A stretch of 64,000 nt of DNA from Mya arenaria. Its lineage: Eukaryota > Mollusca > Bivalvia > Myida > Myidae. The notes beneath the pieces are model-generated. The model was not told where the DNA came from and searched no databases. It saw nothing but the letters and a program-made list of their open reading frames with translations. The stretch spans positions 20,507,945 through 20,571,944 of the forward strand of contig NC_069129.1 of the NCBI RefSeq assembly GCF_026914265.1, written 5' to 3'. Shown piece after piece: positions 20,713 through 51,884 of this stretch. Position numbers and translations under genes: made by a program. Numbering within the stretch: the stretch's first letter is position 1; every line of letters begins with the position of its first letter.

Positions 20713-22180
20713 ACGAAGTTCCTGGGCGCAAGCGTTATTCATTTAGTGATCGGAAACCATTTTTCAGCTCAAGGTCATCGTGACATTGACCTACTGATCA
20801 CAAAATCAAGAGGGATCATCTACATGACGAACTTGCATACCAAGTATTAAGTTCTTGATTTCAAGTGTTGTTTAGTATCTGAGCGGTAACTGTTCTTCAT
20901 CTCAAGGTCACGGCAACCTTGACCTTTGACCTACTGATCTCAAAAACAATAGGGTTCATCTACTAGTCATGACCAATTTGCATACCAAGTATGAAGTTCC
21001 TGGGTGCAAGTGCTGTGTAGTTATTTAGCGGAAACCGTTTCCTCACCTAAAGGTCACGGTGACCTTGACCTACTGATCTCAAAATCAATAGGAGTCTTCT
21101 ACTAGTCATGACCAACTAGCATACCAAGTATTTCGTAATTAAGCAGAAACCATTTTAGCTTAAAGTCACCGCCAACATGTGTTTACCTTGACCTTTGGAT
21201 CTTAACATCAATGGGGGTCATCTTCTAGTCATGAACAACCAGCATACCAAGTATGAAGTTCCTGGACCCAAAGGATCTTTAGTTATCGAGCGGAGACCGT
21301 TTCTTAACCTCAAGTTCACAGTGACCTTGACCTTTGAGCTACTGATCTCAAAAACAATAGGAGTCATCTCATAGTCTTGACCAACTTGCATACCAAGTAT
21401 GAAATTCCTGGGTGCAAGTGTTCTTTAGTTATTGAGCGGAAACGGTTTCTTCACCTCAAGAACACGGTGACCTTGACCTTTGACCTACTGATCTCAAAAT
21501 CAATAGGAGTCATCTTCTAGTCATGACCAAGTTGCATACCAAGTATGATGTTCCTGGGTACAAGCGTTCTTGAGTTATTGAGCAGAAACCATTTTTAAGC
21601 TTAAGGTCACCACCAACTTATCGTTTTTTACCTTAAGGTAACCTTGACCTTTTGATCTGAAAATCAATAGGGGTCATCTTCTAGTCATGAACAACTAGCA
21701 TACCAAGTATGAAGTTCCTGAACCTAAAGGATCTTTAGTTATTGAGCGGATACCGTTTCTTCACCTCAAGGTCACCGCGACCTTGACCTTTGATGTACTG
21801 ATCTATAAATCCATAAGGGTCATCTACTAGTCATGACCAACAAGCATACAAAGTATGAAGTTCCTGGGTTCAAGCGTTCTTTAGTTATTGAGCAGAAAAC
21901 ATTTTTAAGCTTAAGGTCACTGCCAACATATCGGGTTTTACCTGAAGGTAACCTTGACCTTTGACCTTTTGATCTCAAAATCAATAGGGGTCATCTTCTA
22001 GTCATGAACAACTAGCATACCAAGCATGAAGTTCCTGAACCCAAAGGATCTTTAGTTATCGGGCGGAGACCCTTTCTTAACCTCAAGTTCACAGTGACCT
22101 TGACGGTACCTTTGAGCTACTGATCTCAAAAACAATAGGAGCTATCTAATAGTCATGACCAACTTGCATACCAAGTATTG
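20713..22180. repeat. Diverged satellite, about 148-bp unit, ten units
   Basis: The phrase CATACCAAGTATGAAGTTCC recurs with spacing of about 120-170 bases (near 20836, 20984, 21122, 21243, 21392, 21536, 21703, 21847, 22017, 22168). It is followed each time by GAGCGGAAACCGTTTC-like and CAAGGTCACGGTGACCTTG-like segments and then CTGATCTCAAAATCAATAGG. Units are diverged and of uneven length. Two alternating flavours are visible: one with TTCACCTCAAGGTCA, and one with TTAAGCTTAAGGTCACC plus CTGAACCCAAAGGATC. Fragments of the same family recur at 51885-51975. Confidence 0.85.
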
Positions 22181-24775: not shown

Positions 24776-27700
24776 TCATGAATTTCCAGCCGCAGCGTTA
24801 CTCTTGTACTTCTCCAGCAGAACTTTCTTATATTCTGTCTGATTGGCCCATAACTCAGCAGCTTGTGCATTCAGTGGACTGTCATTGTTTGGTTCTGAAA
24901 ATAATAATGCAATGTTGATTTTTTAAATAGAATTCTGGGAATCGTATGCGTCAGTCAGATGTAGAGAGTGCCAGTCGTTTTGAAAATACAAGGGCCTTGG
25001 TTGGGATAATATGCCAGTAAGTATTAATGCAAAGTTTTGTAAAGATTGGAGAAGAAATAGTGGAAATGGAAGTTACTCTGCTGAAGACGTTACTGAAAAC
25101 ATTGTCCTTTTGTTACAGCCATACTATGCAGAAGGCATTATTTTCATTTACTAGTAGGTGAAAACAGTGGTGACTCTCTGAGAGGAATGGTTTACCAGGT
25201 TATTTCTATTAATTTGTAAATGAATAAATTTTCATTTTTTTAACATAAAAAACATGCTGTCTTTTTCTGCGATTCACATGAAAGTCGCACTAGAAATCAT
25301 GCTTTTGACATGTTAAATATAAAAGACAATTAAAGTTCAATTCAAGTTGATCAACTTCTTTAAAATCATCATGTTTGTATCAGTAATGTGTATCACTTAT
25401 ATTTTTACCAGGGGCTTTGCAGGGGTTTCAAATTAACCCAGGGCTCAAGGAGGTGAATAAAAAAGCCAGTTGGTGTCGGTCAACCCCTATTTCCCAATAC
25501 AATTAAAAAACCAAACTGAGTTCAAAATTCCCAATAAATATTTTGAAAACAAATGATTCATTTGGCCCAAAACAAAAAAGGTTGAGGGGTTTTGTCACAT
25601 CAGATTATATAAAGCAATTGTTGATTTATAGATCACATATTTCTTGACATTTGTTCATTAACTTTGATGTAATATCTTGACTTTAATTCCCAATTTGAAG
25701 GTAATGGACCATCTTCTCAAAATAGCCAAAAAAGCCCCGGTATGTCTTGGTACCAAAAAGTAACCGTATAAAATTGTTTGATCCCCCCTAAGCTGGAAGT
25801 AGTAGATAAACACACCTCCGAGTAAGCTTTGAAGTGAGATGAGGATAGTTCGCACATCGTACAGGGCAGACCATTTCTCCTTGAGGATGTCGAGGCATAT
25901 ATTTCCGTGGTTGTCTACGTTTGGATGGTAGCATGGTGTCTCAAATTTCACTGTCGGGGCATGGTAAGGGTAGCCACTTGGAAATTCAAGTGTCAGTTTA
26001 AAGCTAAGACTCTCGTATACCTAAAAATATAAAATATAATAATTTCAGTGGTTTTCTTCACCAAGTCTCCCTTTGGCATATGTTAATTGAGTGTGTGGAG
26101 GAACTGGTGTCGTAAAGAAAACCAACTAGTATGTCTTGTTGACAACAAATTAAACTCACTTGCCCAAGAGCTGGGAATCAAACCTTGGATGCTTATCTGA
26201 CAACCATTTGATTTTATTGTTGTTTTTTAACAGAACTCAGAAGCTACACGTATCATATTACCATGAAAAACATTTATAATTTAATATAATATAATATAAT
26301 GAACTATCGAAAATCTTAAACATGATCAATTCCTAACATAATCAAAGAATGGCTTAAAATGACACATGGACAAAACATAAATTAAGAATGCAAATGAATG
26401 GAATATAAACATAAAGAGTTTGTAGACCCTATTTCTATTCACGTCCAATTCATTTAAATATTTCTCATTAATTTACTTCAAATAATTCAGGTATAGCTTA
26501 ATGTTGAGTCTACAAAATTAGCACTTGTGTAAGGCCGTAGATGGTCAGATGCTTTTGGTGCCAAAAATTTCATAAAGCAGGGCTTGTTAAATATTTCTTT
26601 GCTAACTGAAGTATAAGAATTCAGACATTTTTATTTAAAAGCTTTATCTTGATGACTGAAGTCTAATCATAAGGATAAACATACTGTTCCATTTGGTCCG
26701 GTTAAAGTACCAATCCATTTGAATAAATTGTCACCATCTGGAAATGCAGTGATCCCTGGGTCTCCCGACATCTGAAACGTCATCCGATGTTTATTACTTT
26801 TTTAAACCAAATTCAACAATTCACAAATGTTTAAGCATCTGTTATCGTATTTAGTTTAAAGTAATCAAGATCTGAACAAAATGTCTTTCCATGTAATTTG
26901 AAGTGTAAATCATATTAATTAAAGTAAAAACCCAATTCAGATGTATGTCATTGTGATAATACAAATGATTATTCCCAAATAAATCTATTAACTAATTTGA
27001 TGATACATGTATCTTATACTACATCTTTGCACAATTTTATACAAACCAAAACATCTTAACATCCTAGAATTCTATTAATCAGATGGAGAGCTTGTCGCAT
27101 CATTTTTTGGTAAAGCCTCTTAAAGTTGTATTAGAGTTCGTGACAGGAAATCAAAGCACAGCTCCAAAATGATGCTCAGAAAAGTAATTCCTTTGTGTCT
27201 GCCGTGGTTTTCAGGTGAAAGACACACAATAAACACAGACATATAAAGTGAATTAAATTTGACAAGTTCAGTGAACAAGATCACAAGTACACAGTAGAAA
27301 ACACAGACGATACTGCTCAGATTGGCGGACCATACGGCCCAGACTGTAGGACGGTACTGATCAAAAGACTATAAGGTCCAAATTAGTTCACCGACCTGGG
27401 TCATATTAGTCACTAATCTTGGTTGTTTCATATCAGCCGATCTGGTCCATATGGTCTGCTAATCTGAGTGACCCATATTGTCGAAATTAGCACAAGGCTG
27501 AATTTTGGCAGACTTGTCCAATCTTTTTTTAATTTGAAGAAAATCATTAGCATTAATCGGGTCACGGACACTACGGACCATGGACACTACGGACCATGGA
27601 CATAACGGACCAGATTTAGGGACATTACGGACCAGATCTAGGGACATTACGGACCATCTTCAAAAACTTATGGACCATGATTTATAATGTTTTTAAACAT

Positions 27701-29943
27701 TTTTTTTTAATTTATTCACTCATTGGTCTTAAATTTGTTAATAAATACTTTAATATAATTGCTCAGTATATGACAATTATCTTTAATGTAACTGAAAAAT
27801 CCCATGAAATTCCAATGTTAAACATTAATGTATTTTTAATAAAATATTATAATAATGTGAATAATAACGAACGAAATATGTGTTTATCTTATAATTGTAA
27901 ATGTGAATATTAATGTTTTCATATGTGATAAATTGCTTTCTGAAATAAACTTTCGATCGTCATATTTGTTTGTTTTCCGTTTCATCTGTTTCAATTGAAA
28001 GGTTCAGTGAAAGTGCGCAGTCACAATGGGTTTTCACACATTTATGATTGCCAATTAAAGGTTGTCAATATAATGTTTGTTTCTTTTGTAATATACCGCC
28101 GATAATTACGGGTACAATTATACCTAATAAACACTAATTAAGGCAACAGAAATTGCCAGTTTTAAACATCAGTTTGCAAGAATTGCAACAAACACTGATA
28201 TGTTCTTATATGTGCTCGATTTATTTTGGGAAATAAACTGTTTTGGAAAATATTTCTGCTCGATTTATTTTGGGAAATAAACTGTTTTGGAAAATATTTT
28301 TTCTGTTGCTTTTAACTGATTTTACTGCCAATCTTTCAAATTTGGTCCGTAATGTCCCTAAATCTGGTCCATAGTGTCCCTAAATCTGGTCCGTAATGTC
28401 TGGTCCGTAATGTCCATGGTCCGTAGTGTCCGTAATTCCATTAATCTAATTTCCATGTGTGATCTTACCAACAGTGTGCGTAGCTCTTGTTGCAATCTGA
28501 AATGAACAAAAAACACAAATGTAGCTTATCAAGTGTCATCAGAGGAAAGACAATGTTTGCCTGACCTTTGTGTTGTTCAAACCAAAGGCCTTTGGTTTAG
28601 TCTAAAATATTAGACGTGTTATACGGGATTCTTCCAATCCCTAACGTCTAAACGGGAATGTGCAAAAAAAACGGGGGTGTTTTAAAAATATTGAAATTGT
28701 TTTAAGTGAAGTATTTTATGGTTGAAATTGATCATAAAGAGTTATATTCATATTTTACCATGTAAGTGAAATGCTATTTTGCACTAAACAAGCATTTAAT
28801 GCATTAAAACAAGTCGTTTACCTTTCCAATAAAACGAAAGTTGACTGACACAGAAAACAATTATGCGAAGGGGAACAACTCGATACAATCGTAATAACTC
28901 GGCCTCCTCCGACAAAGCTTCGAGATAGACCTTGTTATACAATCATAACAACTCGGCCATGGCCGAAATGTTCCGAGCGATTTAAAACTGTGCCCTGAAA
29001 CCTTGCAGGTGCCCTTCATGTATATATCGTTATGTTATGACAGAATGAAATGAAGAAAAGCCGTCAAACTCATAATTATAAGTTGGATATTTATTTTTAG
29101 TGTACGGAACTAATATAAAATAACATTATCTGGTAATATTTCTTGTTTTTATGATATTTTATAGACGCTATATGCTTTAACCCGGAATCCTGATTGGAAC
29201 AACTACCCACTTTCGATACTAAACAATTTGTACGTGAAGGATTTGCCATATCAAAAATCTAAAAAAAATCCGCCAACGTACAATAATTTGGACTACCTTT
29301 GGTTCAAACCACAAGCATTTCTCATGATTATTTTTACCTTCTATTTAACCTACAGATTAAATAGCAACACAGTGTAAAAAAAGATCCTGAGAAAACCCTG
29401 TGGTTTCAGCAGATCTAAGTCTTTTAAGATGCAATTTAGTAAAACATGCGGGACACGATTTTCTCATAATAACTTTCAGTGTAACATTACCTTTTTTGAT
29501 TAAGTATCATGTAGACAAGTGTAAAAGTATTTATTTAGCCAATACTGCTGGTGGTTACTTTGAATATTTATACAAATTTATTTTAACTTTGAATAATAAA
29601 GTAACGTTTGTCAGATAAATATAGAAACTGCAGTGGTATATAAACAAAATAAAGAAGAAAAATACACAATTTCTTACGATATCAAAACAAAAATACTAAT
29701 ATTAACTTTATTCTGTTTTAAAGGTCTAAAGATTGTTCGAGAAATTGTGGTAATCAAATTAAACTTGCATATCGAAAATGACGACCTCCTTTGTATTTTT
29801 TCTACCATTCGCGAAAATATATGACAAAATATTTGTACTTACCGTTTGCTCACAGAATGAGTTTCTTTGGAGTTCATTGCAATTTTCCCTTTATCTTTAG
29901 GCCTTTGATTACTCGTACTGGGGTCTATGTTTTGTTCTGACAT
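24776..29943 (-). CDS. UBE2C: Ubiquitin-conjugating enzyme E2 C (UbcH10 orthologue)
   Basis: Five exons in transcript order (29943-29843, 28496-28469, 26771-26685, 26020-25816, 24894-24776) splice at GT-AG sites into 179 codons plus stop, the same length as human UBE2C. The E2 works with the anaphase-promoting complex, adding ubiquitin to mitotic cyclins and securin. Residues 1 to about 34 are the variable N-terminal extension ([16 protein letters not shown]). [16 protein letters not shown] begins the UBC fold. [16 protein letters not shown] carries the HPN motif and the catalytic Cys in [22 protein letters not shown] is diagnostic of UBE2C. The tail ends [10 protein letters not shown]. Exon 2 is only 28 bp. 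Intron 2 holds two inverted-repeat elements. The start ATG at 29943 gives the expected family length. Confidence 0.97.
26055..26205 (-). mobile_element. Old SINE family 1 copy in UBE2C intron 3
   Basis: Read on the minus strand, GGTTTGATTCCCAGCTC (box B) is followed by diverged GTGAGTTTAATTTGTTGTCA and ACTAGTTGGTTTTCT, matching the body of the copy at 3545-3766 at lower identity. Confidence 0.55.
27316..27468. repeat. 153-bp inverted-repeat element in UBE2C intron 2
   Basis: CTCAGATTGGCGGACCATAC at the left pairs with the right-hand segment GTCTGCTAATCTGAG plus TCTGGTCCATATG. The arms are about 28 bp with a few mismatches. The GGACCAT word is shared with the larger element at 27559-28438, 90 bp away. 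Confidence 0.6.
27559..28438. mobile_element. Non-autonomous DNA transposon with 8-bp target duplication
   Basis: A perfect 8-bp duplication CATTAATC (27551-27558 and 28439-28446) flanks 880 bp with terminal inverted repeats. Each end carries ACGGACACTACGGACCATGG followed by several direct copies of GGACATTACGGACCAGAT. The interior has no coding capacity and contains a 45-bp tandem pair (GCTCGATTTATTTTGGGAAA, starting at 28213 and 28258). An 8-bp duplication fits the hAT superfamily. It lies in intron 2 of UBE2C. Confidence 0.75.
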
Positions 29944-33870: not shown

Positions 33871-36800
33871 ATGTCAGCGACTGCTTTAAGCCTCTCTGGT
33901 AGGACGTTGGGTGCCGGAGAATTGCAGAGAATCAAAGAGAAGGGAAAGCAATGGGCGGTGTTACATGGTAAGCTGAAAATATTTATACTTGACTTCATGA
34001 CCTTTCTTAAAGCTGAACCCTCACAGATTTACCGTCTTTTATTTTTTGTTTTTGAATGAGCCAATTTTTGAGTAAATATGTAACAACCAGTGATATAAGA
34101 CTGCTGACAAAAGATCGGATCACAGATTTTCATATTTCTGTTCGAAAAATCAATTTTTGAACATAAGATAAAAACCTGCCATCTTATTTTAGTCAGCAGT
34201 CTTATATCACTAGTACATGCATTTTTCGCAAAAAATGGCTTGTTCCTAAAATAAAAAAGCTGTCAAAACGTTCAATCTGTAAGAGTGCAGCTTTAATTGA
34301 TTTTATATCATTATTAGGCTCTATTTCCAATATTTTGAAAAATATATTTTTCTCAATTTATGTGTAAAAACTGCCAATGAATTTACTTTGAAAAACATGG
34401 TCAATTTTGAAGAAAAAAATCACAAATATAAGGCTTTGATCTCTTATCTCTAACAATTTTTTATGTGTATGTGACAGTGTTACAGTTTAGCAGTCATGGT
34501 TCAAATTTGAATGTATTTCTATCATGCATGAACAAACATAATTATCCTTGATATTTTGTCTTCATTTTTTTCCCACCTTCAATGGTTTACCCGAGTGTAT
34601 GACTTTGCATTAATTCATCATAATTTGCATTTCATTTTTGGCTTCACTAGTACATAATACGAGACATCTATTCATGTAATGTATTTATTTCACCTTTCAG
34701 TATGATAAGTTTGTATGGATAAATGTATACAAAATATAGAACATATACTCTTCAAAATAAGTTAAGGACCTCAAAGAGAAACTGATCAATCTTAATTATA
34801 AGGCATGCATATCTGTATAATATAATTTTATATAATATAGTAATTCTTTACATTTGGGGCATCAGTTTAAATTGTACCACCTTAAATTCAACATTATTTT
34901 ATACTTTTTTTCCACTGGCAGAAAATATGTTATGCTTAATGTATATTTGGCAAATAGAATATGGAAACCTGTGTTTTATAAACTTTCAAAAATATTTGAA
35001 AGAATTTGTTAGCATTTAATTTTCTTAACATGTTTCTGTTATACAGCACAGGGCTTCCATTAAGAATTTGAAACTGGAAGTATGAACTTCCAGTCAATCA
35101 ATTTTGGAAGTTTTACACTGAAATGTGGAAGTTTAAGTCTCCCGAATACAATATCTTTTTCAACTATTTTTCAACAAGTACATTAAAAATCTAATAATTT
35201 GCAACTTTAACTTGCCAAAATCACAGACTTATATTGTATTAATTCATTTTACTTAAACAGTTAAACTGATTGAAATTGTGACCATAAAAGTAATATTGAC
35301 AAAAGGGTTTGAATTTTGAAATTCCAAGCTTTCAACTTTGGAAGTTTTCTTCAAAATTATGGAAGTTTTTGTACTTCCAAAGAATCATATTTGGAAGTTT
35401 TAACCCATTTCTAAGGAGTAATATACTTCCAAACTTCCTTTAACGGAAGCCCTAACAGCAACAGTTAATTTAACTTAGACAATGATTTTCCTAACACTTG
35501 CAATGAAATTAAACAAAAGAAAATTACATTGAGCCCATGTTCTAGCCAAATCTTTAAAACATTTTTTAAAGCTGTTTTTATTTACAATATTAAATCTCAA
35601 AAAATCTATGTTGAAGGTCACATGTATTTGAGTATGCGCAATTTTTCATGAAAGTCTAGTTGGTGCAGTTTTAGTTTGAAGGTTTTTTTTTCTAGTATTT
35701 TGGAAAAATGATCTATATCTTTGGAATTGGGAATTTTCAAGTCATTTTTTTACAGTATTTTTAAATAGTTGTGTAGGTTTAATACACTCAAATATCTTTT
35801 TACCATTGTGGGTTTTTTAGACCTTCGAACAATATACTTCAATTTACTATATTGAAAATTGAAATTCATTACTATGACCACGAACCTATAAACCTTCAAA
35901 CATATTCATTGCTTATAATACATGTGACAAGCCAGTCCTGACGGAAATTAATGGAGATCGCAGATTGAATTACTGGCAGTAATTGCTGAGTGCAGGCTTT
36001 GATTGTGGGTAGATTATTATTCATTATCATTTCACAGATATCAGGCAGTTTTCAATCCATGGTTTATAGGTCCGTGCCTTAATACTGCATGTAGTGTTGT
36101 CTCCATGGAGGGTGACAGGCGGTCTAATGATATTTATTGATGTGGTGTGCAGTTGGCCTTAAACACTGAACATCCCATATCAGGTTTATGTTCGTGGTCA
36201 AGAAAAAAATGTGTAATTGGCAAATATTGCAAGGCTGGTAGGATTCATAAATGAGTGAATAATATTTTGATTAGGTGCAGTTAATTATATTTTTTATTTC
36301 ATATCATTTTAATCCTCAGCTGTGGTTATGCGACCCCAGAATGATCCAGGTTCAAAGTCACATGTTGAATATGCCCCGATGACATTATTCCCGAGCCCAC
36401 TGCCACGAGGTGTCCTAGCAGAAGCAAAGGCGTTACAACCCTACTTCAACCGGCTCATACACCAAGTGGCACATGACCATGAGTACCTTTGGCATTGTCT
36501 ACACAAGTAAGTGAACGTCTATTTAATTCTATTAGGTTCTATTGATTTGGGCTATGGGACACTGCCTACAAAGTTACAAACTAGGTGTTGACTGTACTGT
36601 ACTGTTTTATATAGTCCCCTAAAATATCAGTTATATTTTTATTTTTATTTTGTTAGTTTGTATTTTGTATGTTCAAAAAGCTTTAAAGCTTTATACTGAA
36701 TATAACTTGAACACTATTCCCCAATGATGAAAATATTGTTCGTACATAAAGCCTAATATTTATTTCTAGCTAACATGTACCTACCCTTCCTGCTATTGAA

Positions 36801-39800
36801 CAAAATGTATCTACAATCAACTTCAAAATGTACCTTTTGAGTTTTTTTGTGCAATTCTATACAGAAATGTCCATGGTCATATTGTATACATTACAGTGTG
36901 GTAAAGGTGGATGACTATACTCGCAGACTCTGGGACATCTATACCACAGTCAGGAAGGAGGGCAGTGCCCAGGTATTGCATAAAAGTTTAAGTTTTATTA
37001 CATATTATTCGTCTGTTTTTCTAAGAAAAAAAATATAATGTTGGTTTAACCACAACTTGTAGACTACTAGGATGTCTATAAAACAGTCAGGTCCAAGAGC
37101 AGTGCTCAGGTTGGGCCTTAAAGACCACAACATTTGGTTCGGGATACCCGACCCTTCACAAAATAGTTGTTGTTGTTGTTGAGTTTATAAAGGTCTGCCC
37201 GCGCCCTATAATGGCTGCATTATGGCTTGACCCTGTCACATCCCCAAGTGTGACTAAAACAGAAGTTTGAAGCCAAAGGGGGAGTTTTACTCCCATCGGT
37301 TGATGGGATATTCGCCAAAGGAGTTATTTTGTATCCAAAGTGCCCAGAAACCGGCGATTCACGAAATAGGCGCCAACCCTACAGTTTTATAGTCAGCTGG
37401 TAAAACAAGATATTTAAAAAATAAAATTAAGTGTGTGTTTTAAAATGCAGTTTAAACCTTTTATGCTTTACACAGAAGATTACTTCAATACCATTTTGCA
37501 ATGATGATAATAATGTTCTTGAATTAAACCAATAAAAAAAAACAACCTACCCTTCCTGTTTTTGAAAAGATGAAACTTTAACCAAACCATTTATTTTTTT
37601 GGCCTAGGCATCAGAAATGTTGCTTTAGTAGATTGTCAACTTGTTGGTTTTAAGAAGCAAATAAGTTTTGGTTTTGTTAAAGCTTAAATTGGTGTCTTTA
37701 TTGTTGTTGTCACTGTTGGTGTCTTGCTAAAATTTTCGTTTTTGCACCGCCAAAATTATTGAAGATTTTCATGAATCTCATGTTCACCTTGACAATATGC
37801 ACATGTGTATCAAATCCCCTAATATCTCTGGCTAAATATTTGTTAAAAATATGTCTCTTGTTGAAATATGAAACTGAACGAGTGTTGGCATCTAATTGCT
37901 ATGGTCGTGAAAGCTAGTCGGTTTTTTGGAAGTAAAAAAGTTCAGGCACAAAACATGTAAAACTGTATATATCGAAATGAAGTTTTGTACATTTCTTGGG
38001 TACATTGTGAATAATTTATCACTCATAATCAAGCCTTTTTTTCTTCATAATTATTATATACATGTAATATGATTGTAAAATTCCTTTATATCAAGCTAAA
38101 ACTAAATTGAATGAACAATATCTGATAATTATTTACAGCCGTTGAGTCTGGGATTGATTCGTAACGACTTTATGTTGGACGTCAAAAGTAGCTGCTGTGA
38201 AATTCAGGGCATGCCACAATGTCTTGAGCTTCGCCAGATAGAAATCAACACAATCGCATCAAGCTTTGCTGGCCTAGCTTCGGGAATCTGGAAGGTACAC
38301 AGGTATATGATAGAAAATGCTAATTTTTTAGATTTATCTGAAAGGTGTCTGCCATTTTAAGCTCACATGGCCCCAATTTCTTGACACTTTTTAAGCTTAA
38401 CTGGCTAATGTAGCTTATTTCAATTTCAAAAATATATATTTCAATTTGATTTTAATAAATGAAAAAAGGTTTATTATAATTTTTAATATCATGAAAATAA
38501 TTCACATTCAAAGTAAAAAAAACTCTTACTGAAGTAAATATAGCTCAAATTATAGAAAACAAAATTAGTGAGCTTAGCTTAATCATGTAAGAAAGAACTT
38601 GAAAAGTTTCGTGAAATTTGGGCCTGATTTTAGTACTTTGTTTTGAATATCATAATGAGTCTTCTAGATGGTGTTTAGAAGAGAGGTCCGACTAAATTAT
38701 GCATAACTTCCATGTTTTTATTGGCATGCCTTTATATTGCAGGTTTACAATGGCACAGGCTGGCATAGAATGTAAACCAGAACAGGTAGGCCACTTTTAT
38801 TTGGATAAAGAAAAAAATATAAATGATTTTATGCTTTTCAGTAAAACATCATGATATTTTCACTGCTGATATTTTCATGGCTGATATTTTCATGGCTGAT
38901 ATATTTACTGCTCTTACACAGCTTGGTTTCTGTTGTTTAACAAAAGAATCACTTTATCAGTGTTGACTTTGCCAATATTTTTTTTAAAGGAATACATGAA
39001 TAAGACTCTATCTTTCTCAAAAAAAATATATAATTTTTTTTTAATGCTATTTAAATCAACACTTTCCTTGAAATTTAAGTAAGAAAAAACAACAACAGAA
39101 AAATTGATGAACAAATCAAAATTAATTCACTGGTGAACATTGAAAATTATATTTTCCTCCACTCATAAAAAGTTTGCTATCAGAGATTACTTGTCAAAAA
39201 TAAATTTGGATCCTACACCAAATTCTGTGAATATTCTCTGTATTTTTCATGAATTTTATATTTTTATCGCTGCATGAAATTTATTTCCCTTGACATAAAT
39301 GTCAAGGGAGAAAAATTACATCTAGACTGTCTAAGAGGGCTGGTTTGCCCCTGCAGTTAGCCACCCTGGACAGTGTTTTACCGCAATATAGACCTTTCTT
39401 TTGGGGTCAATGCAATATCGTACTGAAGCAACATTAAAATTTGTATGGCTTTGACATGTTTGCATTGAACCTATAAACTGACATTTTACCTGCAGTTCCA
39501 TATAGAGAACATATTTGTAGAGAAATTAAAAGGGGAAAGTGATTTCTCAATGTGTTATATTTCTTTCAGATACCGGTAAATGCACCTGCTGAAGGCATTG
39601 CGAAGGGTCTGTTGTCAGCATGGGAACACTATGGCAATCAGAGGTTTGTGTTGATCTAATTACAGTCATATGTTAATACTGGTCCTAGAAGGTTCATCCA
39701 AAGGAGGTCATTTTCTCGTGACCTTTTTGTCAGCCAATCAGATGTTTACTTACAACAAGTCTGTATATATGCGATAGAGTTAAATTTAGCCAATATTTCA

Positions 39801-42800
39801 CTGGGATTCCAAATGTGATTTGAATATTTAAAATAAAACCTTTGAATATCTGCGATGTAGGTTCGAATCTTGCTTCATTTTTATGTAAAAATATATAAAA
39901 AAACAACAACATTAAAAGCACACTTTTGCCAGTCAATTTGTGTATGATTTACATTTTTTTTAACATTGATGTAACCTATTATCCAATTAACTCCAAAAGA
40001 ACACAGACTATCAGTTGTGCATAATTTCTTATAAGCTGAGCTATAAAAAGCATATTTATAGTTTAACAAGTTCCAACGGGTTGGAGTCAGATTTTATCTT
40101 AAGTATATTAAAGATTATATTTGTAGTGTTATACCCCCTGAAAAATCCCAAATAACATAAAAATGTTTTGTTCTGCAGGGCTACTGTTCTCGTTGTAGCC
40201 TCACTTTTAAACTTGTTTATGTATGTCAAATAATATTTATAGTATGTTGATTTGAAATCCAATGGAAAATGCCTCTGATGAGGATATATACCCAAATCAT
40301 CTTGTCATGTTATTTGCTTATAAAATAATGTCTTTTTCTTTAACATAAAAGGTTTTTTGCCTTTTTTTAGCAACAAATCCATCATTGATTGATAATTTTT
40401 TTCCAGTGCATCAGTTTTATTTGTTACAATGGAGGTTGAACGGAATGCCGTGGACCAGTGGTGGCTGGAGTCCCAACTGTTCTCGCTAAGCCACAATGTG
40501 TGTGTGCGATACACAACACTACAGTATGCATACGAACATGCCACGTTGACAGATGATAAAAGATTATTGCTGTAAGAAGTTTACTTATTAAGATTTTGAG
40601 TATATTGTAAGTAATGAATTATTTTATTCTATTTTTATTGTTTCTGTAAGTAGTACAGTGGAACCTCGCTAAACCGGATCTCCACAAAACCGGAATCCTC
40701 GGGATACCGGACTTTTTTCAGAGTCCCGATTTTTCCCTTATACTTTTCAATGTAAAATAATCCCCACAAAACCGGAACCTCGGAATTCCGGATACCGGAC
40801 TAAAAAATCGAGAAAATTTGTTAGTTGTCAACGTAATTTTACCTCGCAAAACCGGACGTTTATTTGTTCAAACATGTCAAAATGATTTTGTGTATTAGGA
40901 ATTCGCGAATCGCGTGTCACTTTGTCACTTTGTTTTGACAGCCGGAGCGTCGTTAAATATTGCACCTTTGATGTTGTGATAACTCGATAATCGATAATGA
41001 TGATTCCGCTGTGGATTGACTGCCGCGCGATAATCAAACGTTAATCAAACTTGTGAAAATAAAAATTGATTGAGACATTAATTTGTTTGTTGTAGATAAT
41101 AAAGAACTAGAAACGGTTATTAAGTGATCATTTTGGGGGGTTGTTTTATCTAAAGACTTCTATGAGTGAATCAAATTAGAGCGGTGCGTTGATTAAAATA
41201 TCAATATACTTAACAAGCATTAAATTACGCGAGTTGTTTTATTTTTTTTTGACTCGGAAAAAAGATGATTATAAAAACGCAGAAATATGTTTATCACTTT
41301 TGCATGTGCTTTAATCATGTCTCAACCTCCGTCTAAACTTACTCCGTACATCAAATCCTCACTAAACTGGAATCCTCACTAAACCGGAAATTTTCCCCGG
41401 TCCGGACCTTGTCCGGTTTAGTGAGTTTTCACTGTAAAATGTTGAGTATTTTAAGTCCTGTTACAAAATATAATGTCGCAAATAACTCCAAAAATATTCC
41501 CCCTTAACTTATTAAACTTATTAGGAAATGTTGGTCAGCATATTCCATACATGCCATATCCCCCGGCGGGGGGAAAAATCCCTCGGAATTTCGACCCATC
41601 CCCTGGTCCCCAGGACCATGATGACTAAGTCCAAAAATTATTGTATTTTGAGTGTATTTCTGTATTTATTCTTATATTATAAATGCAGATATTGCGTAAA
41701 TTTTCGTCGCGCATCCCCTGGTGTTATATCAAAGTCCCCTGGAATTCAGACAAAAATCCCCTGGGAAGCCTCTCAGAAATATGGCATGTATGATATTCAA
41801 TTCAATTGTGCACCTTTTGTGACATATCGCAGTGTCTAGCAAGAATTATGGCCCTTTAATAAATGAAAAAAATGGTCTTTAAAAAATGTGTTACATATAG
41901 CTCTAAAGGTATTGCACCTTCACTGATGAAACTTCATAGGAATGTTTGTCTGCTTTGTGAGTGCCAAATCTTATTTACATTCCACTTGGTCCAACAAGAG
42001 TTATTGCACCTGACCAAGTAAATATCACAGATCTGCAAGATCTTGTTTGGCATGTAACACCTAAATTATTGTAACTACTATAATGAAACTTCCTAGGAAC
42101 GTTAGTCAGGATGTGCTTTTGTGCACCTGCCATATCTTTCATTAATAAATTCTGCAACTCAACATTTAACCATTTCTTTGTCAAGGCGGTGTCTGGTGTT
42201 TTTCATCATACTGTGATAGCTGTAGTGTTTTTTCTCAATGTAGCAACCCTAACTAGTAGAATACTGATTTAAAATCACGAGTTGATATGAATATGTGGTT
42301 TAATTACAGTGATGGAAATGAAATTGCTGTGATATACTATCGGGATGGCTATGCACCCACACACTACCATTCAGAAAAGGTAATTTAACAATTATACCGT
42401 AATAATTATAAGCACCCTCTGAATTCCATTTCCATTTTGGTAATTGGAAAGGTTATTCTAAAGAGGAACATTCTGATCAGATTTGCTGTAAAGAGCAATG
42501 TCTATCTCATGTAGAATTGTATTTGTTATTTAAACGTTTCACAGGTGTGACTTGAACACATCAGAAAATATTTTAACTATCACGGTCACTTACCACACAG
42601 TCTTCATAAAATGCACCTGACCGAATGCCCGAGGTTTAATGAAAATGTTTTGAGTCTATTGAAATTCAGTTGCTGCAGGCCCTTTTGGCCTGTACTTTGT
42701 TCATTGTACGGTAACAGTTAAAACAACTGAAATAACCTAAAAGTATGAGTTTAATTATTCCACATGCTCAATTGGTATGTGCTCAAAAAATCATTTCACA

Positions 42801-45800
42801 TACACAGAACTCATTCGGTAGACCTCAGTTTATTTCCCAGTCTGGCAGCAATTTTGTGACAATGTTTTATTGAATGTGATGAGACATGTATATTTTATCC
42901 CAAAGTTCAAGCTCAACTTTAGAAAACTTGCTGAGTTGAATATTTTTGTGTTTTGAGCTTGCCTGTTTTTTTAAAGAAAAAAAGATTGTCAGATTCTCTG
43001 TGTCCTTGTCGCGAGCATTGTGCGAAGACCTCAACTTGGCCATAACTCAAAAACCTAATCAAGATATTTGAATGAAACATTATGTACACACTCCCACATG
43101 TATAGCAAGTTTCATAACTCCGGCTTTAATAATTTTTCTATTTAATAAATAGAGTTGTGCCCCTTTTTGACTGAAAAAACAACACCGATGAGTGTTTCAC
43201 AGTGCTCATGTTACTTTATAATCCAGGAATGGGATGTCAGATTGATATTTGAGAGATCAAAGGCAATCAAGTGTCCATCCGTCCACCTACAATTGGCCGG
43301 ATGCAAGAAGGTGCAACAGGAGTTAGCCACCCCTGGTGCTGTCGAGAGGTTTATTAAAGACAGGGAAGTGTGTAATGGAATCAGGAACACATTTGCTGGG
43401 CAGTACACATTGGATCAGGTGAGATTTTGGCCCGAATTTCTTGAAACATCTTTTTTTTAGAACTGATTAAGCTAGGCTTGCTATTTTTGTTTTGGTATAA
43501 TTTGTATGTGTATTTACATTCTTAAGTGGTTTTGGACTATGAAATATTATTATCGTTACGATGATCACGATTAACTAATTTTCATTTAGTTAAATCAAGA
43601 TTAAGTAAGAAATTGGATTAATATAAAAAGCCTCTTAAGCTTTAGAGTAATTGGGGCCTGGTGCTTCTGTGTCTTAATACAATTTAACGATTAGTATTTA
43701 AAGTGTGCACTGTTGATTGATTGAACAATATTTCAATATACTTAGTAGGTGACCATTTCATCAAGATTCTTGGAAGTAATTTTGCATTTTCAACAGTAAT
43801 ATTGCACTGTTCTTAGGTTTGAGAGTATTTCTAAGATGCTTGATAATAGCATTATTTATTTTTTTATAAATCCATGTATCAGTACTCAGCTTTCCGCCAC
43901 CAAAGCAAAAAACAAGCCAATAGCAAATACTGTACATTAAATACCCCCACAAAACCATCCCCAATATGTAACAAATTTATTAAATAAATAGTCAATAATG
44001 TTATAAATTACAAAGGTAATTATACTTTTGCTTTGTAAATTTCATACTTATTTACACTGCATATTTTGATTATGTATAGGGCCCAGAAGGTGACGCAAAT
44101 GCAAAGATGGCCATCAACGATCCCAGTCATTATGTACTCAAGCCTCAGAGAGAGGGAGGAGGTATGTGTTAGGATTAGTTGGGCTCAAACCTCAGAGGGA
44201 GGGAGGAGGTATGTGTTAGGATTAGTTGGGCTCAAACCTCAGAGGGAGGGAGGAGGTATGTGTTAGGATAAGTTGGGCTCAAACCTCAGAGGGAGGGAGG
44301 AGGTATGTGTTAGGATTAGTTGGGCTCAAACCTCAGAGGGAGGGAGGAGGTATGTGTTAGGATTAGTTGGGCTCAAACCTCAGACGGAGGGAGGAGGTAT
44401 GTGTTAGGATTAGAAGGGCTCAAACCTCATAGAGAGAGGGAGGAGATATGTGTTAGGATTAGTGGGGCTCGAACCTCATAGAGAGATAGGAGGAGGTATG
44501 TGTTAGGATTAGTGGGGCTCAAACCTCATAGAGAGAGGCAGGAGATATGTGTTAGGATTAGTGGGGCTCAAACCTCAGAGGGAGGGAGGAGGTATGTGTT
44601 AGGATTAGTTGGGTTTAAACCTCAGAGGGAGGAAGGAGGTATGTGTTAGGATTACTGGGGCTCAAACCTCATAGAGAGAGGGAGGAGATATGTGTAAGCA
44701 TTAGATGGGTTTAAACCTCATAGAGAGAGGGAAGAGGTATGTGTTAGGATTAGTGGGGCTCAAACCTCATAGAGAGAGGGAGGAGATATGTGTTAGGATT
44801 AGTGGGGCTCAAACCTCAGAGGGAGGGAGTAGATATGTGTTAGGATAAGTGGGGCTCAAACCTCATAGAGAGAGGGAGGAGGTATGTGTTAGGATTAGTG
44901 GGGCTCAAACCTCATAGAGATGTAGGAGATACGTGTTAGGATTAGTGGGGCTCAACCTCAGAGGGAGGGAGGAGGTATGTGTTAGGATTAGTGGGCTCAA
45001 ACCTCAGAGGGAGGGAGGAGATATGTGTTAGGATTAGCGGGGCTCAAACCTCATAGAGAAAGAGAGGAGATATGTGTTAGGATTAGTGGGGCTCAAATCT
45101 CAGAGGGAGGGAGGAGGTATGAGTTAGGATTAGTGGGGCTCACCTCATAGAGAGAGGTAGGAGATATGTGTTAGGATTAGTGGGGATCAAACCTCAGAGG
45201 GAGGAAGGAGGTATGTGTTAGGATTAGTGGGGCTCAAACCTCAGAGGGAGGGAGGAGGTATGTGTTAGGATTAGTGGGGCTCAAACCTCATAGAGAGAAG
45301 AAGGAGATATGTGTTAGGATTTGTGGGGCTCAAACCTCATAGAGAGAGGGAGGAAATATGTGTTAGGATAAGTGGGCTCAAACCTCAGAGGGAGGAAGGA
45401 GGTATGTGTTAGGGTTAGTGGGGCTCAAACCTCATAGAGAGAGGGAGGAGATATGTGTTAGGATTAGTGGGGCTCAAACCTCAGAGGGAGGGAGGAGGTA
45501 TGTGTTAGGATTAGTGGGGCTCAAACCTCAGAGGGAGGGAGGAGGTATGTGTTATGATCAGTGGGGCTCAAACCTCAGAGGGAGGGAGGAGGTATGTGTT
45601 AGGATTAGTGGGGCTCAAACCTCATAGAGAGACGGAGGAGATATGTGTTAGGATTAGTGGGGCTCAAACCTCATAGAGAGAGGGAGGAGATATGTGTTAA
45701 GATTAGTGGGGCTCAAACCTTACAGGGAGGGAGGAGGTATGTGTTAGGATAAGTTGCGCTCAAACCTCAGAGAGAGGGAGGAGATATGTGTTAGGATTAG

Positions 45801-48800
45801 TGGGGCCCAAACCTCATAGAGAGACGGAGGAGATATGTGTTAGTATTAGTGGGGCTCAGAGGGAGGGAGGAGGTATGTGTTAGGATTAGTGGGGCTCAAA
45901 CCTCATAGAGAGAGGGAGGAGATATGTGTTATGATTAGTGGGGCTCAAACCTCATAGAGAGAGGGAGGAGATATGTGTTAGGATTAGTGGGGCTCAAACC
46001 TCATAGAGAGAGGGAGGAGATATGTGTTAGGATTAGTGGGGCTCAAACCTCATAGAGAGAGGGAGGAGATATGTGTTAGGATTAGTGGGGCTCAAACCTC
46101 ATAGAGAGAGGGAGGAGATATGTGTTAGGATTAGTGGGGCTCAAACCGTAGAGGGAGGGAGGAGGTATGTGTTAGGATTAGTTGCGCTCAAACCTCAGAG
46201 GGAGGGAGGAGGTATGTGTTAGGATTAGTGGGGCTGAAACCTCATAGAGAGACAGAGGAGATATGTGTTAGAATCAGTGGGGCTCAAACCGCATAGAGAG
46301 AGGGAGGAGATATGTGTTAAGATTAGTGGGGCTCAAACCTTACAGGGAGGGAGGAGGTATGTGTTAGGATTAGTGGGGCTCAAACCTCAGAGAGAGGGAG
46401 GAGATATGTGTTAGGATTAGTGGGGCTCAAACCTCATAGAGAGACGGAGGAGATATGTGTTAGTATTAGTGGGGCTCAAACCGCATAGAGAGAGGGAGGA
46501 GATATGTGTTAGGATAAGTGGGGCTCAAACTTTAGAGGGAGGGAGGAGGTATGTGTTAGGATTAGTTGCGCTCAAACCTTAGAGAGAGGGAGGAGGTATG
46601 TGTTCGGATTAGTGGTGCTCAAACCCTTGAGCTATTAAATGAGAAGCAGACACCTGTATAACTAAAAACCAGCACCTTGTAGTTGCGTTTCTACCTGCCT
46701 GTAACCATAAATGACTTCATTTTTTACCTGAATCTTGCAATTCTTAAAAAAAAATTTTTTGAGAGTATGTGTTCCAAATAATGCCATATATATATATGTT
46801 TCTTGGTACCGAGTATTCTTTAATAAGCCCCTGAGTACTTCATATCAAAACATGGGGCTTAGTAATAATGAAGTAGTCAGGGTTCTCAATAAGTTTTAGT
46901 TAAACTAGCCCTCATATAAAAGTAACTAGCCAACTAGGGAGGCCTGGAAAAGTTTCCCGAGTGAGAGATTAATTTCGAGCATTCTTGGTCATTCTAAAGG
47001 CATTTTTGAGCACATTTTTAAATTGCAATTACATTATAAAAAATTCCTGTAATTGTCACATAATGCACTGGATACAAGTTCTACAGCTCATGTTTAAAAC
47101 TGACATCAAACTTGAAACTATGAAAGGCACATTGATAAATGAAAATTGAATAGGCACATTGTTAAAGAAAAATTGAAAAGGCTCATTGATGAATGAAAGT
47201 TGGAAAGGCACATTGCCTAATGAGAATTGACAACAAGAAAGGTACAAGATAAAAAATTAAACCAAGTCAAATCTGAACCAGCCTAATTGCCATTTGAACT
47301 GTCCATTTCAGCCAGCAGCCAGTTCTTGTTGAGAACCCTGTATAATATGTTTGTAATGAATGTTAGATAAGAAAACTAGGCACATTAGACATAAGATGGT
47401 TGTCAACAATCTAGGACAAGCTTAACCAGGTTTTTCTTCCAACTCATGAGACAACATTTTGTGGTAATATGATATATATATATACTGGTGTATATGTTTT
47501 TTGTTGTTGTTTCTTTAAACTAAAATTCACTGCTTATATCTTTAAAAATGAAATATATCTGCAGGGAACAACATCTATGGAGATGAAATAGCAGAAATGC
47601 TGCAAAAAATGGGAAGTACAGAGGAAAGGAGCGCTTATATTCTGATGGAGCGAATATTTCCATGGCCTCAAAACAACCATTTATTGAAGGAGGGAAAACC
47701 ATGTGACCTTTTGGAGGTCATTAGTGAGCTTGGAATTTACGGAGTTTATCTAGGGTAGGTACTTAACACTGACCTAGAATAAATCAATTGATTGCTTTTA
47801 GCTTGTGTTTCGAGGAAAAAAAGTCCACTATGTAGTGTTATAGCCTTGGCTTAGTTGTCGTAGCTGTGAGCGTCAATGAGTTAAAAAAACTTAAACCCTG
47901 GCCTTAAAGCTGCACTCTCACAGATTTACCGTTTTTACAAACTTTTTTATTTTTTGTCTTGGAATGAGCAAACTTGCGTTAATTATCTGCAAACCAGTGA
48001 TAAAAGACTGCTGACAAAAGATCAGAACGCAGATTTTCATATTTCCATTAGAAAATTGATGTTTTATGGCTAAAAGAGTTACTAACGGTTTAAGAAAAAT
48101 GCATAAATCGTATATTTTTGAACTTAAATATAAAAATCTGCGATCTAATGTTTTGTCAGCAGTTCTACATGCTTTTTTGCATGAATTGGCTCGTGCCAAG
48201 ACAAAAAATATAAAAGGTAGCAAAACGGCCAATCTGTGAGAGTGCAGCTTGAAGGCATAACAAATTATATGTTTGTTTCTGGTTTCATCGCCAAAAATAA
48301 TGTGTGGGTAGATGTCAAAAACCCTTTATTTTTTATTTTTTAAAAGAAAAAAAATCAAACAATTTTTTATGTCAAATTAAAAAAAAAGATCGATATTAAA
48401 AGGAAAAATATAACACCCTTTGCCAGAGACAATGTGCATTAGCAACAAAGACTTTATTTTTGGCTTTTAAATTTTTTGAGTTATGCCTCTTTTTGGTGAC
48501 ATTTGTTGGTGATTTTCCCACAGCTTTCTTGTTCATTAATCAAAATTATATGCTATCATTTAAAAACAATTTTATCGGAGTAAAGAGATTGGTACACATA
48601 AGTACAACACATTGTTACATTATGTTAAACATTTAAACGGGCAAAGTGCCAAGTGGACATTTATGAAAAAAAATAATGAGTACTTTATTTCAGTAAAAAC
48701 TTAACAAAGTATTTTTTAAATATCCTAGCTGGCACACCTTGAAATTAATTTTATAAGAAATTTTGTCAGTACATTTTTTAGAACCTTATATTTTAATATG

Positions 48801-49401
48801 TATATTTTACTCAGATGCTTTGAAGAAATTAGTTATTATAAGGTATTGTATTTTACTGTGTTGCTAAATGGCTTTTTTCTGAGCTATCATGGCATTTTGG
48901 CATTGAAGAAGTAGAGAAAAGTAGGGAAATTTAAGGAGTTTGTGTGCAATGTCTTAAATGAAAGGTAAATGAATATACTCCTCAGGCCCTTATTTCTCAA
49001 AACTTCTTAAGCTTAACAGACTTAAGTAACTTATTTTAATTAGCCAAAATACATATTTGATACATATTTAAATATTGAAAAATGAAAAATGGTTTATTCG
49101 GATTGTCATAAAGATAATTCCTATCTAAAGTATAAACACTCTTAAAAAGGGTAAATATCACCCAAATAATTGGAAAAAAATAGTGAGCTTAGCTTAATCC
49201 TGTCATAATGGACTAGAAGTTTAGGCCAGATGTCAAATTTTGTATTCTAATTATTTCAGATCAGCTGAGGAAGAGTTGGTTAATGAAGAAGTGGGTCATC
49301 TCCTTAGAACTAAGGCTCATACAGACAATGAGGGTGGAATAGTGGCGGGGTTCGCTACCATAGACTCACCACTCATTGTAGAGGCACCATGTGTAAAATA
49401 G
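33871..49401 (+). CDS. GSS: Glutathione synthetase
   Basis: Twelve exons (33871-33967, 36320-36506, 36897-36972, 38139-38302, 38743-38785, 39570-39643, 40407-40571, 42310-42379, 43227-43418, 44080-44161, 47565-47754, 49260-49401) join in frame at GT-AG sites into 493 aa (human 474). The enzyme joins glycine to gamma-glutamylcysteine using ATP, the last step of glutathione synthesis, in the cytosol as a homodimer. Family motifs are present: YAPMTLFPSPLP, the metal/ATP-binding QIEINTIASSF (E155, N157), EIAVIYYRDGY, LAGCKKVQQEL, the glycine-rich loop LKPQREGGGNN (about 376-386), YILMERIFPWP, ISELGIYGVYL, and HLLRTK with the substrate-binding Arg at 463. The first ATG gives an N-terminus slightly longer than human. 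Introns are loaded with MITEs, and intron 10 opens into an exon-derived minisatellite. Confidence 0.97.
34007..34296. mobile_element. TTAA-flanked palindromic MITE, family 1, copy 2 (GSS intron 1)
   Basis: TTAA-AGCTGAACCCTCACAG at the left and CTGTAAGAGTGCAGCT-TTAA at the right, with internal arms TATAAGACTGCTGACAAAA and its complement. It starts only 39 bp after the exon 1 donor. Confidence 0.8.
35049..35454. mobile_element. MITE with CAGGGCTTCC ends (GSS intron 1), hAT-like
   Basis: CAGGGCTTCCATTAA at the left pairs with TTTAACGGAAGCCCT at the right. ACAGCA flanks both sides, a possible remnant of an 8-bp duplication. The interior is unusually rich in TGGAAGTTT and its complement, at least seven times. 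It is non-coding. Confidence 0.6.
38369..38624. mobile_element. GGCCC-ended MITE, copy 1 (GSS intron 4)
   Basis: GGCCCCAATTTCTTGACACT at the left and AAGTTTCGTGAAATTTGGGCC at the right form the inverted ends. The subterminal words TTTTTAAGCTTAAC and TTAGTGAGCTTAGCTTAATC recur in the copy at 48985-49227. Confidence 0.7.
40656..41434. mobile_element. Pogo/Tigger-like MITE (GSS intron 7)
   Basis: The element is flanked by TA on both sides. It begins CAGTGGAACCTCGCTAAACC and ends GGTTTAGTGAGTTTTCACTG, an inverted repeat of about 24 bp. Both subterminal regions carry repeated AAACCGGAA words. It is 779 bp long and shows no transposase. TA duplication and CAGTxxAACCTC ends are typical of pogo/Tigger relatives of Tc1-mariner. 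Confidence 0.75.
41546..41792. mobile_element. MITE with CATACATGCCATAT ends (GSS intron 7)
   Basis: CATACATGCCATATC at the left pairs with ATATGGCATGTATG at the right. The interior is rich in ATCCCCTGG. It is 247 bp long and non-coding; superfamily unknown. Confidence 0.65.
43429..43660. mobile_element. GGCCC-ended MITE, copy 2 (GSS intron 9)
   Basis: GGCCCGAATTTCTTGAAACAT starts 10 bp after the exon 9 donor. The right end reads AAGCTTTAGAGTAATTGGGGCC. The interior is diverged from copies 1 and 3. Confidence 0.6.
44162..46620. repeat. Minisatellite made of the GSS exon 10/intron 10 junction
   Basis: About 50 abutting units of about 47-52 bp fill the start of intron 10. The main unit is GTATGTGTTAGGATTAG, then TGGGG, then CTCAAACCTCAGAGGGAG and GGAGGAG. 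Its last 25 bases match the last 25 bases of exon 10 (44137-44161) at 23 of 25 positions, and its first bases are the authentic intron start at 44162. A second unit class reads CTCATAGAGAGAGGGAGGAG followed by ATATGT instead of GTATGT. The frame of the exon is visible in some units (LKPQREGGG translated at several places). A run of nearly identical second-class units lies at about 45890-46140. Confidence 0.95.
47904..48252. mobile_element. TTAA-flanked palindromic MITE, family 1, copy 3 (GSS intron 11)
   Basis: TTAA-AGCTGCACTCTCACAG at the left; CTGTGAGAGTGCAGCT followed by TTGA (a changed TTAA) at the right. The internal segment AAAAGACTGCTGACAAAAGA matches copies 1 and 2. Confidence 0.8.
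48985..49227. mobile_element. GGCCC-ended MITE, copy 3 (GSS intron 11)
   Basis: GGCCCTTATTTCTCAAAACTT at the left and AAGTTTAGGCC at the right. CTTCTTAAGCTTAACAG and AGTGAGCTTAGCTTAATC match copy 1. It ends about 30 bp before the last GSS exon. Confidence 0.65.
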
Positions 49402-49699
49402 ACAATGAAAGCTCATACCTGAAAAACAAAGATGGAATAGCTGTGTGTGTGTCAATTGCTGGGGTGGGATGGGAGAGGGTTGGGTTGCTCTTAGTATGAG
49501 TGGATGATTTGCAATTACAGTTACAAACTGCTCAATGTGGAGATGCAATGTGTATAGAAAATTGAGGGCTCAGGTGTAAAATAATTATATAATCACACAT
49601 ATCTCTTTTTTTGCTTATTTATTTATTTTGCTTTGTAAGTTTCTCTTTTTCTGGAGACGAAACAGGGTAATGTATAGGTGATTTTATTCAGCATATATT

Positions 49700-49895
49700 T
49701 TAGTTTAAAGTTTAATCCAACGAAACAAGTTATTGCAACTTATATAAGTTACTCTGGTTGGCACAAGGTTGCGCGTGAGTGTTTTATTGTATTGTTGGGG
49801 AAACCGGAGTGGCTGGAGAAAACACACTTGTCCGACTTGGTGACCACGAACCATACTCACATGCACCCAGGCCAGGAAATCGAACTCTGGTCGCC
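49700..49895 (-). mobile_element. tRNA-derived SINE (family 1), head partly lost
   Basis: On the minus strand, GAGTTCGATTTCCTGG (box B) is followed by GTGGTCACCAAGTCGGAC, GTGTTTTCTCC and CACTCCGGTTTCC and a tail near 49705. The box A side is missing. Confidence 0.75.
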
Positions 49896-51884
49896 TACAT
49901 TTTACTTTTATTGGCTTGCCTGTTTTATGAAGTAATAACACTATAATTAGTTGGAGATGTCGGTGTTGTATTTAAATAACCATTATGCCTCCTTATAACT
50001 ATTAAAAGCGTTGGCATTAATTTTGCTTATCATTCTTTTTTTTTTTTTTAGATCATTCAGATGAAAAAAAACTGTTGTACATGTTTTTTTTTAAACTGCA
50101 AGCTGTCTATAGAATGCAGTCTCATTTTATATGGTCAGATAAGGAAAAGATATATTTGTGTGTAATGTGACCAAAATGCTTGTTTTAATGATAAAACATC
50201 GTCAATCGGGAGCTGTAATGGTAATCATCGTTTAAAGCATTGTAAATATTATTTTATGTTATATTATTTTTCTTTTACATTGTTTGTGCTTTTTAAGTCT
50301 TCAGTATTGGTATGTAATGGGCATTATAATCACCACCCCTCTTAGAAGCAGATTGTTTCATAATTAGCGAGATATTACAATATTTACAATAGCATTGAAG
50401 TTATTGTAAAACACAGTCTTGAAAGTGGCTTGTAAAGATTTTTAAATTTTGCATAAGGCCATACCAAATTTATTTCTACGGTATGTTGAGCATCAGGTTT
50501 TAGTTTTAAAATCTACCTACCTGGTAGGTATGAAACGAAGCACCGTAGAAAACAACAACAATAAATGTATTTGATAGCATTTGATAACGAAAGCATCATT
50601 ATACATTTACAGCTAAAAAATTTAGATGCTGAGGCCACAATTGAAAAACATTTGACCCACAGTTTGATGGGTGGATAGGTTAACAGGTTATTTTACCATG
50701 CATTCAAAAAGTAAAACCAGCCGTGTTTACTTAACATGTTTGTGGCCAGTGTTTGCTGTTTGGTTTCCTGCTTGCAGTGTATTTGCTGAGTTCCAACAGG
50801 GAAACAAATCAAAACAGTTTGCTTACGTTAGACAATAATTTACCATACAAGGTCCCTAAGGTTGACATATTGTGACCAAACTTGGGATGTAGGAAGAATT
50901 TATGGAGACCTTTTTTGGGGGATTGCATTTGGGGACCCTAGGGTCAAGGTCAATGTCACCTACCGTAAAATAGAAAAACGTGTGAAACTGAATCTCACAA
51001 CATTTTTTCTGTCAATCATCGAAAAACCTGGTTTTGTGCATTGTGGTGTTTCTTTTTCTCTTTCTTACCTCAAAATTCCACAATGAAAATAAAATTAAAG
51101 AATTAAAATAACCAATGGGGAGGCAAAGTAATATTCCGGGTAGCTGGTAAGGCCGAACCAAACAAACTTTTAATTTTGGCCTCATGGTATAATTAAAATA
51201 TAAACTACTAATTGTGGCCTCATGGTATAATTTAAAGATATATTTTCAAACCGGCATTATTATCTCCTAATTATTATTTAGCTCTATAAAATCATTTTCT
51301 TTGCATAATTAAGAGTTTAAAGAAATGTTGTTTTTTATTCTGGATGCTGAAAACATAACTGTTGGATTATGCAAAACAGTGAACCAATTTTGCAAGCTGA
51401 TAGATTTCATTTTTTTTTAGATGTATCAAGATAAAGCTATTCAGTATCTTTTCAAACAATAAATATTTAACGATAATCAGAAGGTGTAACTACAGTTTAT
51501 ATTTTTAACATTATAAAGCTACTATAAATTGTATGTATTATTTAGTGTAAAATCTTGCATGCTACTTTTGCAATTTCCTATAAAGCATTTAATTTTCAAA
51601 AAGACATATTTTAAACAAATTTTTTAAGATATTTTTGAGTGAGTGCAGACTATGACAAGCATACATATTCTTAAAAGGCAAAAGCTAAGCTAAAAAGGGA
51701 GGTCATATTTTTCCAAATTTAAATTTCTTTCTTGAAAACAAAAATAAATCGAATAAAACATTGACTCAATTTATTTTATATAAAAAAAATAAAATAAAAT
51801 GCTGTTGACTGCAAATTTGATCAGTCGGCATGGTCTGTAATTGTCACACTTCATTTTCTGATCTATTATGTTTGATCAACTTTT

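Follow-up and report, generated by a model that had tools for sequence, protein, structure and literature searches.

A probable mirage-type minisatellite built from an exon/intron junction in the glutathione synthetase gene of Mya arenaria

The gene encoding glutathione synthetase (GSS) in the bivalve Mya arenaria contains a tandem array of about 52 copies of one of its own exon/intron junctions, which starts in the last bases of an exon and runs on into the intron that follows. The array lies in a stretch of 64,000 nucleotides of contig NC_069129.1 (forward strand, positions 20,507,945 to 20,571,944, assembly GCF_026914265.1), hereafter called the window, to which all coordinates below refer. 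This junction array is real and well beyond chance. Very probably it is an exon/intron-junction minisatellite of the kind named mirage in amphioxus, born by duplication of the junction and removed from the transcript through the first donor, and most likely it is neutral. The features discussed below are collected in Table 1.

The GSS gene and its junction array

In a tblastn search with human GSS, ten ordered coding blocks were found on the plus strand between 36313 and 49371, the first starting at human residue 28 and the last continuing to the stop codon. The central part of the encoded protein matched the Pfam family PF03917 (E 1.8e-50) and the solved human GSS, 2hgs (E 8.3e-47). The exon that provides the exon half of the repeat unit is the eighth of these blocks, which is a block count and gives no exon number, since the 5' end of the gene lies beyond the traced part. 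When this exon was spliced in silico to the exon starting at 47565, the frame was kept and the protein continued like human GSS. The acceptor proper to this intron is placed 0.9 kb past the end of the array.

Tandem Repeats Finder reported the array at 44147-46625 with a period of 47 and 51.9 copies, and also as a dimer at 44137-46625 with a period of 96 and 26.1 copies. We counted 51 complete donor-to-donor units, with lengths of 47 (24 units), 49 (22), 46 (3), 50 (1) and 40 (1) bp, and a typical unit consists of about 25 last bases of the exon followed by about 22 bases of the intron. A 21-base junction core, GGAGGTATGTGTTAGGATTAG, gave 52 matches when up to three mismatches were allowed, all of them on the plus strand within the array, and a mean of 0.00 in 100 shuffles. 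The same core had no match at this tolerance elsewhere in the 64-kb window, by which a dispersed repeat was ruled out within the window, and nothing in Rfam was matched at the gathering score.

Of the last 25 bases of the exon, 23 are shared with the common unit without any shift of register, and the likeness runs on through the donor. Moreover, the array contains two exact copies of the last 19 bases of the exon, at 45765 and 46385. The original prediction had described about 50 tandem copies from the true donor onwards, a unit that is the exon/intron junction itself, with copies of the donor following the real one, and the 23-base match to the exon end; all of this has held, with about 52 units between 44137 and 46625. 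As for the doubt, raised with that prediction, that any purine-rich sequence might match as well, the exon bases, shuffled 200,000 times with their composition kept, never gave 23 identities (maximum 19), which places the match beyond chance and rules out a likeness of this kind. Among the synonymous encodings of the peptide LKPQREGG, 146 of 18,432 reached 23, with a mean of 18.75.

The shuffles, together with the exact register through the donor, the confinement of the core to the array and the fact that the exon half encodes a peptide conserved in human GSS, make it extremely unlikely that a satellite or mobile repeat already in existence came to lie beside the exon by chance and shares only its richness in purines, even though the unit is purine-rich and animal genomes often contain satellite-like arrays.

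Unit classes and turnover of the array

The units of the array fall into two classes. At the donor position, and counting the true donor, 26 of the 52 units read GT and 26 read AT. In addition, 25 of the 51 later units carry a TA insertion in their exon half. The units with this insertion comprise 22 AT and 3 GT, whereas the 26 units without it comprise 4 AT and 22 GT (Fisher p 1.7e-7), and the AT donor looks like one shared change and not like many independent losses of a donor.

The exon halves of the 51 units were also compared as 16-mers. Two main types were found, CAGAGGGAGGGAGGAG in 14 units and CATAGAGAGAGGGAGGAG in 13, while the exact exon type was present in two and the remainder were variants. 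The 16-mer of the exon itself, CAGAGAGAGG, reads one step from either main class, and both classes are therefore most simply derived from the exon. An exon-like unit would thus have given rise to two lineages, one in which AGA changed to AGG and the donor stayed mostly GT, and another which gained the TA insertion and whose donor is mostly AT.

Over all pairs of units the mean identity is 83.9%, and it is 84.5% at lag 1 and 86.9% at lag 13. The five-unit block formed by units 30-34 recurs as units 43-47, a correspondence that ranks with the best found at any offset. The five units closest to the exon are probably the most recent local expansion, and their near identity hints at recent change. 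The array turns over as minisatellites ordinarily do, and it has grown recently at its exon end.

The assembly of tandem arrays is difficult, and a few real copies might have been inflated by misassembly. The draft-genome version of one amphioxus mirage is in fact said, in the account given in PMC3087553, to look aberrant, and miscounting is conceivable for the repeated blocks and for the five proximal units, which are nearly identical. We consider such an artefact very unlikely as an explanation of the array, since the units differ from one another to a degree that makes a false expansion of the whole unlikely.

The array was most likely born when slippage or unequal exchange duplicated a segment across the junction, flanked on both sides by near-direct copies of CTCAARCC (CTCAAGCC at the left edge and CTCAAACC at the right). 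Later growth would have proceeded by repeated unequal exchange or conversion. As growth at the exon edge would copy the real donor, which is under selection, it would place fresh GT decoys nearest the exon. A model of minisatellite birth outlined in PMC3389668 proposes that slippage or unequal crossing-over duplicates a segment which has direct repeats of 5-10 bp on either side. The array edges, which agree at seven of eight positions, would fit this model and offer weak evidence for it, and a birth from direct repeats would also account for the AAA found in units where the exon has AAG.

Donor sites and their consequences for splicing

The nonamer GAGGTATGT at the true donor is common to 25 of the 52 units, which leaves 24 exact decoys. 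Its predicted pairing with U1 is middling (-6.6 kcal/mol; the consensus reaches -11.8 and the AT form -0.6). The original prediction spoke of dozens of near-identical donors. Many do follow the real one, but only about half of them are usable decoys, since 26 of the 52 units read AT. The stop codon that it placed at 44170-44172 upon use of a later donor was recovered for every one of the 25 later GT donors. Because all of them leave this stop in frame, a correct GSS protein needs the first donor.

Predicted local folding does not single out the true donor. At 37 °C, 5 of the 25 later GT donors are predicted to be at least as closed as the true donor, and at 15 °C this holds for 3 of the 25; with no advantage in accessibility, a structural marking of the true donor was ruled out.

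We observed that the donor core, from +2 to +10 (44163-44171 and the equivalent bases of later units), is less variable than the rest of the intron half. If a change is called rare when its base is present in fewer than 8 of the 51 units, the core contains 3 rare changes in 459 cells and the segment from +11 to +22 contains 27 in 612. The best-window test of this conservation is weak (p 0.038, the width having been chosen afterwards). Moreover, two of the rare changes in the core belong to the 26 dead AT units and one to the 25 GT units. The core is therefore equally conserved where the donor is dead, so that donor function does not explain the low variation, and selection for it was ruled out as the cause.

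It might be thought that the later donors form a regulatory decoy array, in which they are measurably used and yield stop-containing, decay-prone mRNA, the length or make-up of the array thereby setting the level of GSS. Such a role would agree with the 25 later GT donors, 24 of them with an identical nonamer, and with the in-frame stop that each one leaves, with the middling U1 match and a true donor predicted to be no more accessible, with the little varied core, and with the case of human IFI6, where two downstream units do work as donors (PMC4526556). We nevertheless regard it as unlikely, given the equal conservation of the core in the dead AT units, the weakness of the best-window test, and the amphioxus mirages, which by the published account seem to leave splicing undisturbed (PMC3087553, PMC3902484).

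If the array is a neutral junction minisatellite, as is most likely, splicing from the first donor would normally remove the whole of it together with the intron. Should a neighbouring donor be used on rare occasions, a truncated, decay-prone message would result. No regulatory role would be necessary.

Several points weigh against this interpretation. An ungapped comparison of the 25 exon bases with the stretch of equal length that precedes each of the 51 later donors gives between 9 and 24 identities, a spread that is largely due to the two-base insertion carried by about half of the units. The direction from exon to array depends on the conservation of KPQREGGG in human GSS and on our reading of the unit variants, and the use of the first donor is predicted from the reading frame and the protein. 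The run of GT at the exon edge, which we attribute to recent local copying, is only mildly unusual (p 0.011 by counting for the first six donors, the true one included, and p 0.023 for the five later ones). Since neighbouring units are hardly more alike than the average pair, growth by single adjacent units would not be general along the array. Finally, a partial last unit would give the same picture as the direct repeat at the edges; any copy number that is not an integer leaves such a unit, and the edge repeats therefore say little about the origin.

Comparison with known boundary repeats

The original prediction knew of no described case of this kind, which proved not to be so. In amphioxus, tandem duplications that span exon-intron boundaries, called mirages, were described in Adh3 and in the globins BflGb6 and BflGb9 (PMC3087553), and troponin C was later added as a mirage gene, with the repeats of PGBD5 brought into the comparison (PMC3902484). 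As given there, the unit measures 10-72 bp in Adh3 and 150-160 bp in the globins, and the mirage of BflGb6 has 6 and 3 units in two haplotypes (PMC3087553). Human paralogs have also been reported to carry tandem repeats where exon and intron meet (PMC2812944).

The tandem unit in GSS spans what the frame indicates to be the true exon-intron boundary, its usual length of 47 or 49 bp falls among the lengths quoted from PMC3087553, and the splice dinucleotide is present in many but not all units (GT in 26 of 52). As in the amphioxus mirages, moreover, there is homogenisation within the cluster (PMC3087553, PMC3902484). By these tested features, judged on the sequence, the GSS array is a mirage and belongs to a rare kind of repeat that already has a name. 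It differs from the amphioxus cases in its approximately 52 units against the 6 and 3 quoted for BflGb6, in the half of its units that lack GT, and in affecting another gene in what is apparently another lineage. Its distinctive traits are thus its copy number relative to the globin mirages, a population of donors of which half are dead, and the in-frame stop.

The minisatellite of human IFI6 (6-16) is alike in that downstream units supply additional splice donors, but according to PMC4526556 those units are used and encode isoforms, whereas all 25 later GT donors of GSS leave a stop. The gain of introns from the duplication of AGGT-bearing exon segments also involves tandem exon copies with splice sites, as presented in PMC4974935; in GSS an intron with its own acceptor already exists, and no new intron is claimed. 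A survey of intronic minisatellites and splicing in C. elegans and the repeats in an intron of an earthworm metallothionein, as far as their accounts go, are only loosely alike.

Literature searches on mollusc repeats and splicing gave no such case, nor was one among the matches listed for bivalve glutathione synthetase. The literature on mirages gave the amphioxus cases and no mollusc mirage among the matches listed.

The GSS array offers a natural experiment in which the spliceosome has to choose among two dozen donors that share one nonamer and stand in almost the same exon context, and in which a wrong choice can be read as a stop.

A second junction duplication in the GSS gene

We also identified a second duplication of a donor-side junction in the same gene, whose diverged copy lies 137 bp downstream of its parent. 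This pair first surfaced in a repeat search and the statistical tests came after. In a self-BLAST of 35500-50500 it had an E value of 0.001, was one of four pairs outside the array less than 2 kb apart, and was matched by none of 5000 shuffles. Judging from the sequence, the duplication is a two-copy one and older than the array.

The junctions of the gene were put to a uniform test: splice sites were set at a GT or AG close by, and a 55-base window across each junction was compared with 1.5 kb on its intron side and with 2000 shuffles. Two of the nine donor-bearing blocks, those ending at 36972 (39/55) and at 44161 (42/55), had a copy unmatched by any shuffle. The donor is uncertain in two of the nine; the smallest count among the 2 and 8 candidates examined for them was 189 of 2000 shuffles. 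On the acceptor side no local copy was found for any of the ten sites (two of them with 3 and 7 candidates tried; lowest 158/2000). When the acceptor test was run from the raw tblastn block starts, the lowest value was 57/2000, at 36313.

Taken together with the array, this second duplication suggests that boundary minisatellites extend beyond the animals for which the mirage name was coined. A broader proposal would be that this genome duplicates its donor-side junctions again and again, that the selected donor seeds live decoys next to the exon, that sites are ranked by position alone and that array length is a heritable dial on GSS output; we put it forward as distinctly improbable.

Two other repeats were noticed in the GSS gene. 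A 65-bp pair (36677-36741 and 37454-37518, 77% alike) flanks the exon ending at 36972 on both sides. In the intron next after the one that holds the array there is a stretch resembling a miniature inverted-repeat transposable element (47901-48256), with inverted arms of 54 nt that are 78% complementary and separated by 248 nt.

Table 1. Coordinates of the array, its subdivisions and the GSS junctions concerned
Feature	Position	Strand	Remarks
GSS junction, parent of the second duplication	36919-36986	+	exon end 36972, GT at 36973
Diverged copy of that junction	37055-37123	+	72-75% identity; GT at 37110
GSS exon, parental exon half of the unit	44080-44161	+	phase 1; ends KPQREGG plus first base of the next glycine codon
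Minisatellite across exon end and intron start	44137-46625	+	some 52 units, of 47 or 49 bp in most cases
Left array edge, within exon	44137-44144	+	CTCAAGCC
True 5' splice site, GTATGT	44162-44167	+	predicted from frame; join to 47565 keeps GSS frame
Five exon-proximal donor-to-donor units, all GT	44162-44396	+	98.3% alike
In-frame TAG	44170-44172	+	reached by later-donor use or intron retention
Five-unit block, units 30-34	45592-45832	+	recurs 13 units later at 96.3% identity
Second copy of the block, units 43-47	46212-46452	+	
Right array edge, in intron	46618-46625	+	CTCAAACC; 7/8 identical to left edge
Following GSS exon	47565-47754	+	acceptor AG 47563-47564; 3' end provisional (nearest GT in frame range)

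Other features of the window

The window has a GC content of 34.4%. A reverse transcriptase frame is found at 1093-2184 (PF00078, E 1.2e-19). Two minus-strand frames of B-box type, at 9757-11415 and 5641-7332, are similar by eye. The former is a single open frame that scores PF00643 exactly at the cut-off, and the latter consists of two adjoining frames in the same register split by a stop. Another tandem array, with periods of 146 and 310 bp, occupies 21198-22178. Finally, short GGACATTACGGACCAGATCTAG-like tandem arrays at 27552-28445 form opposed inverted arms; these measure 67 and 45 nt, are 88-89% complementary and lie 668 and 804 nt apart.
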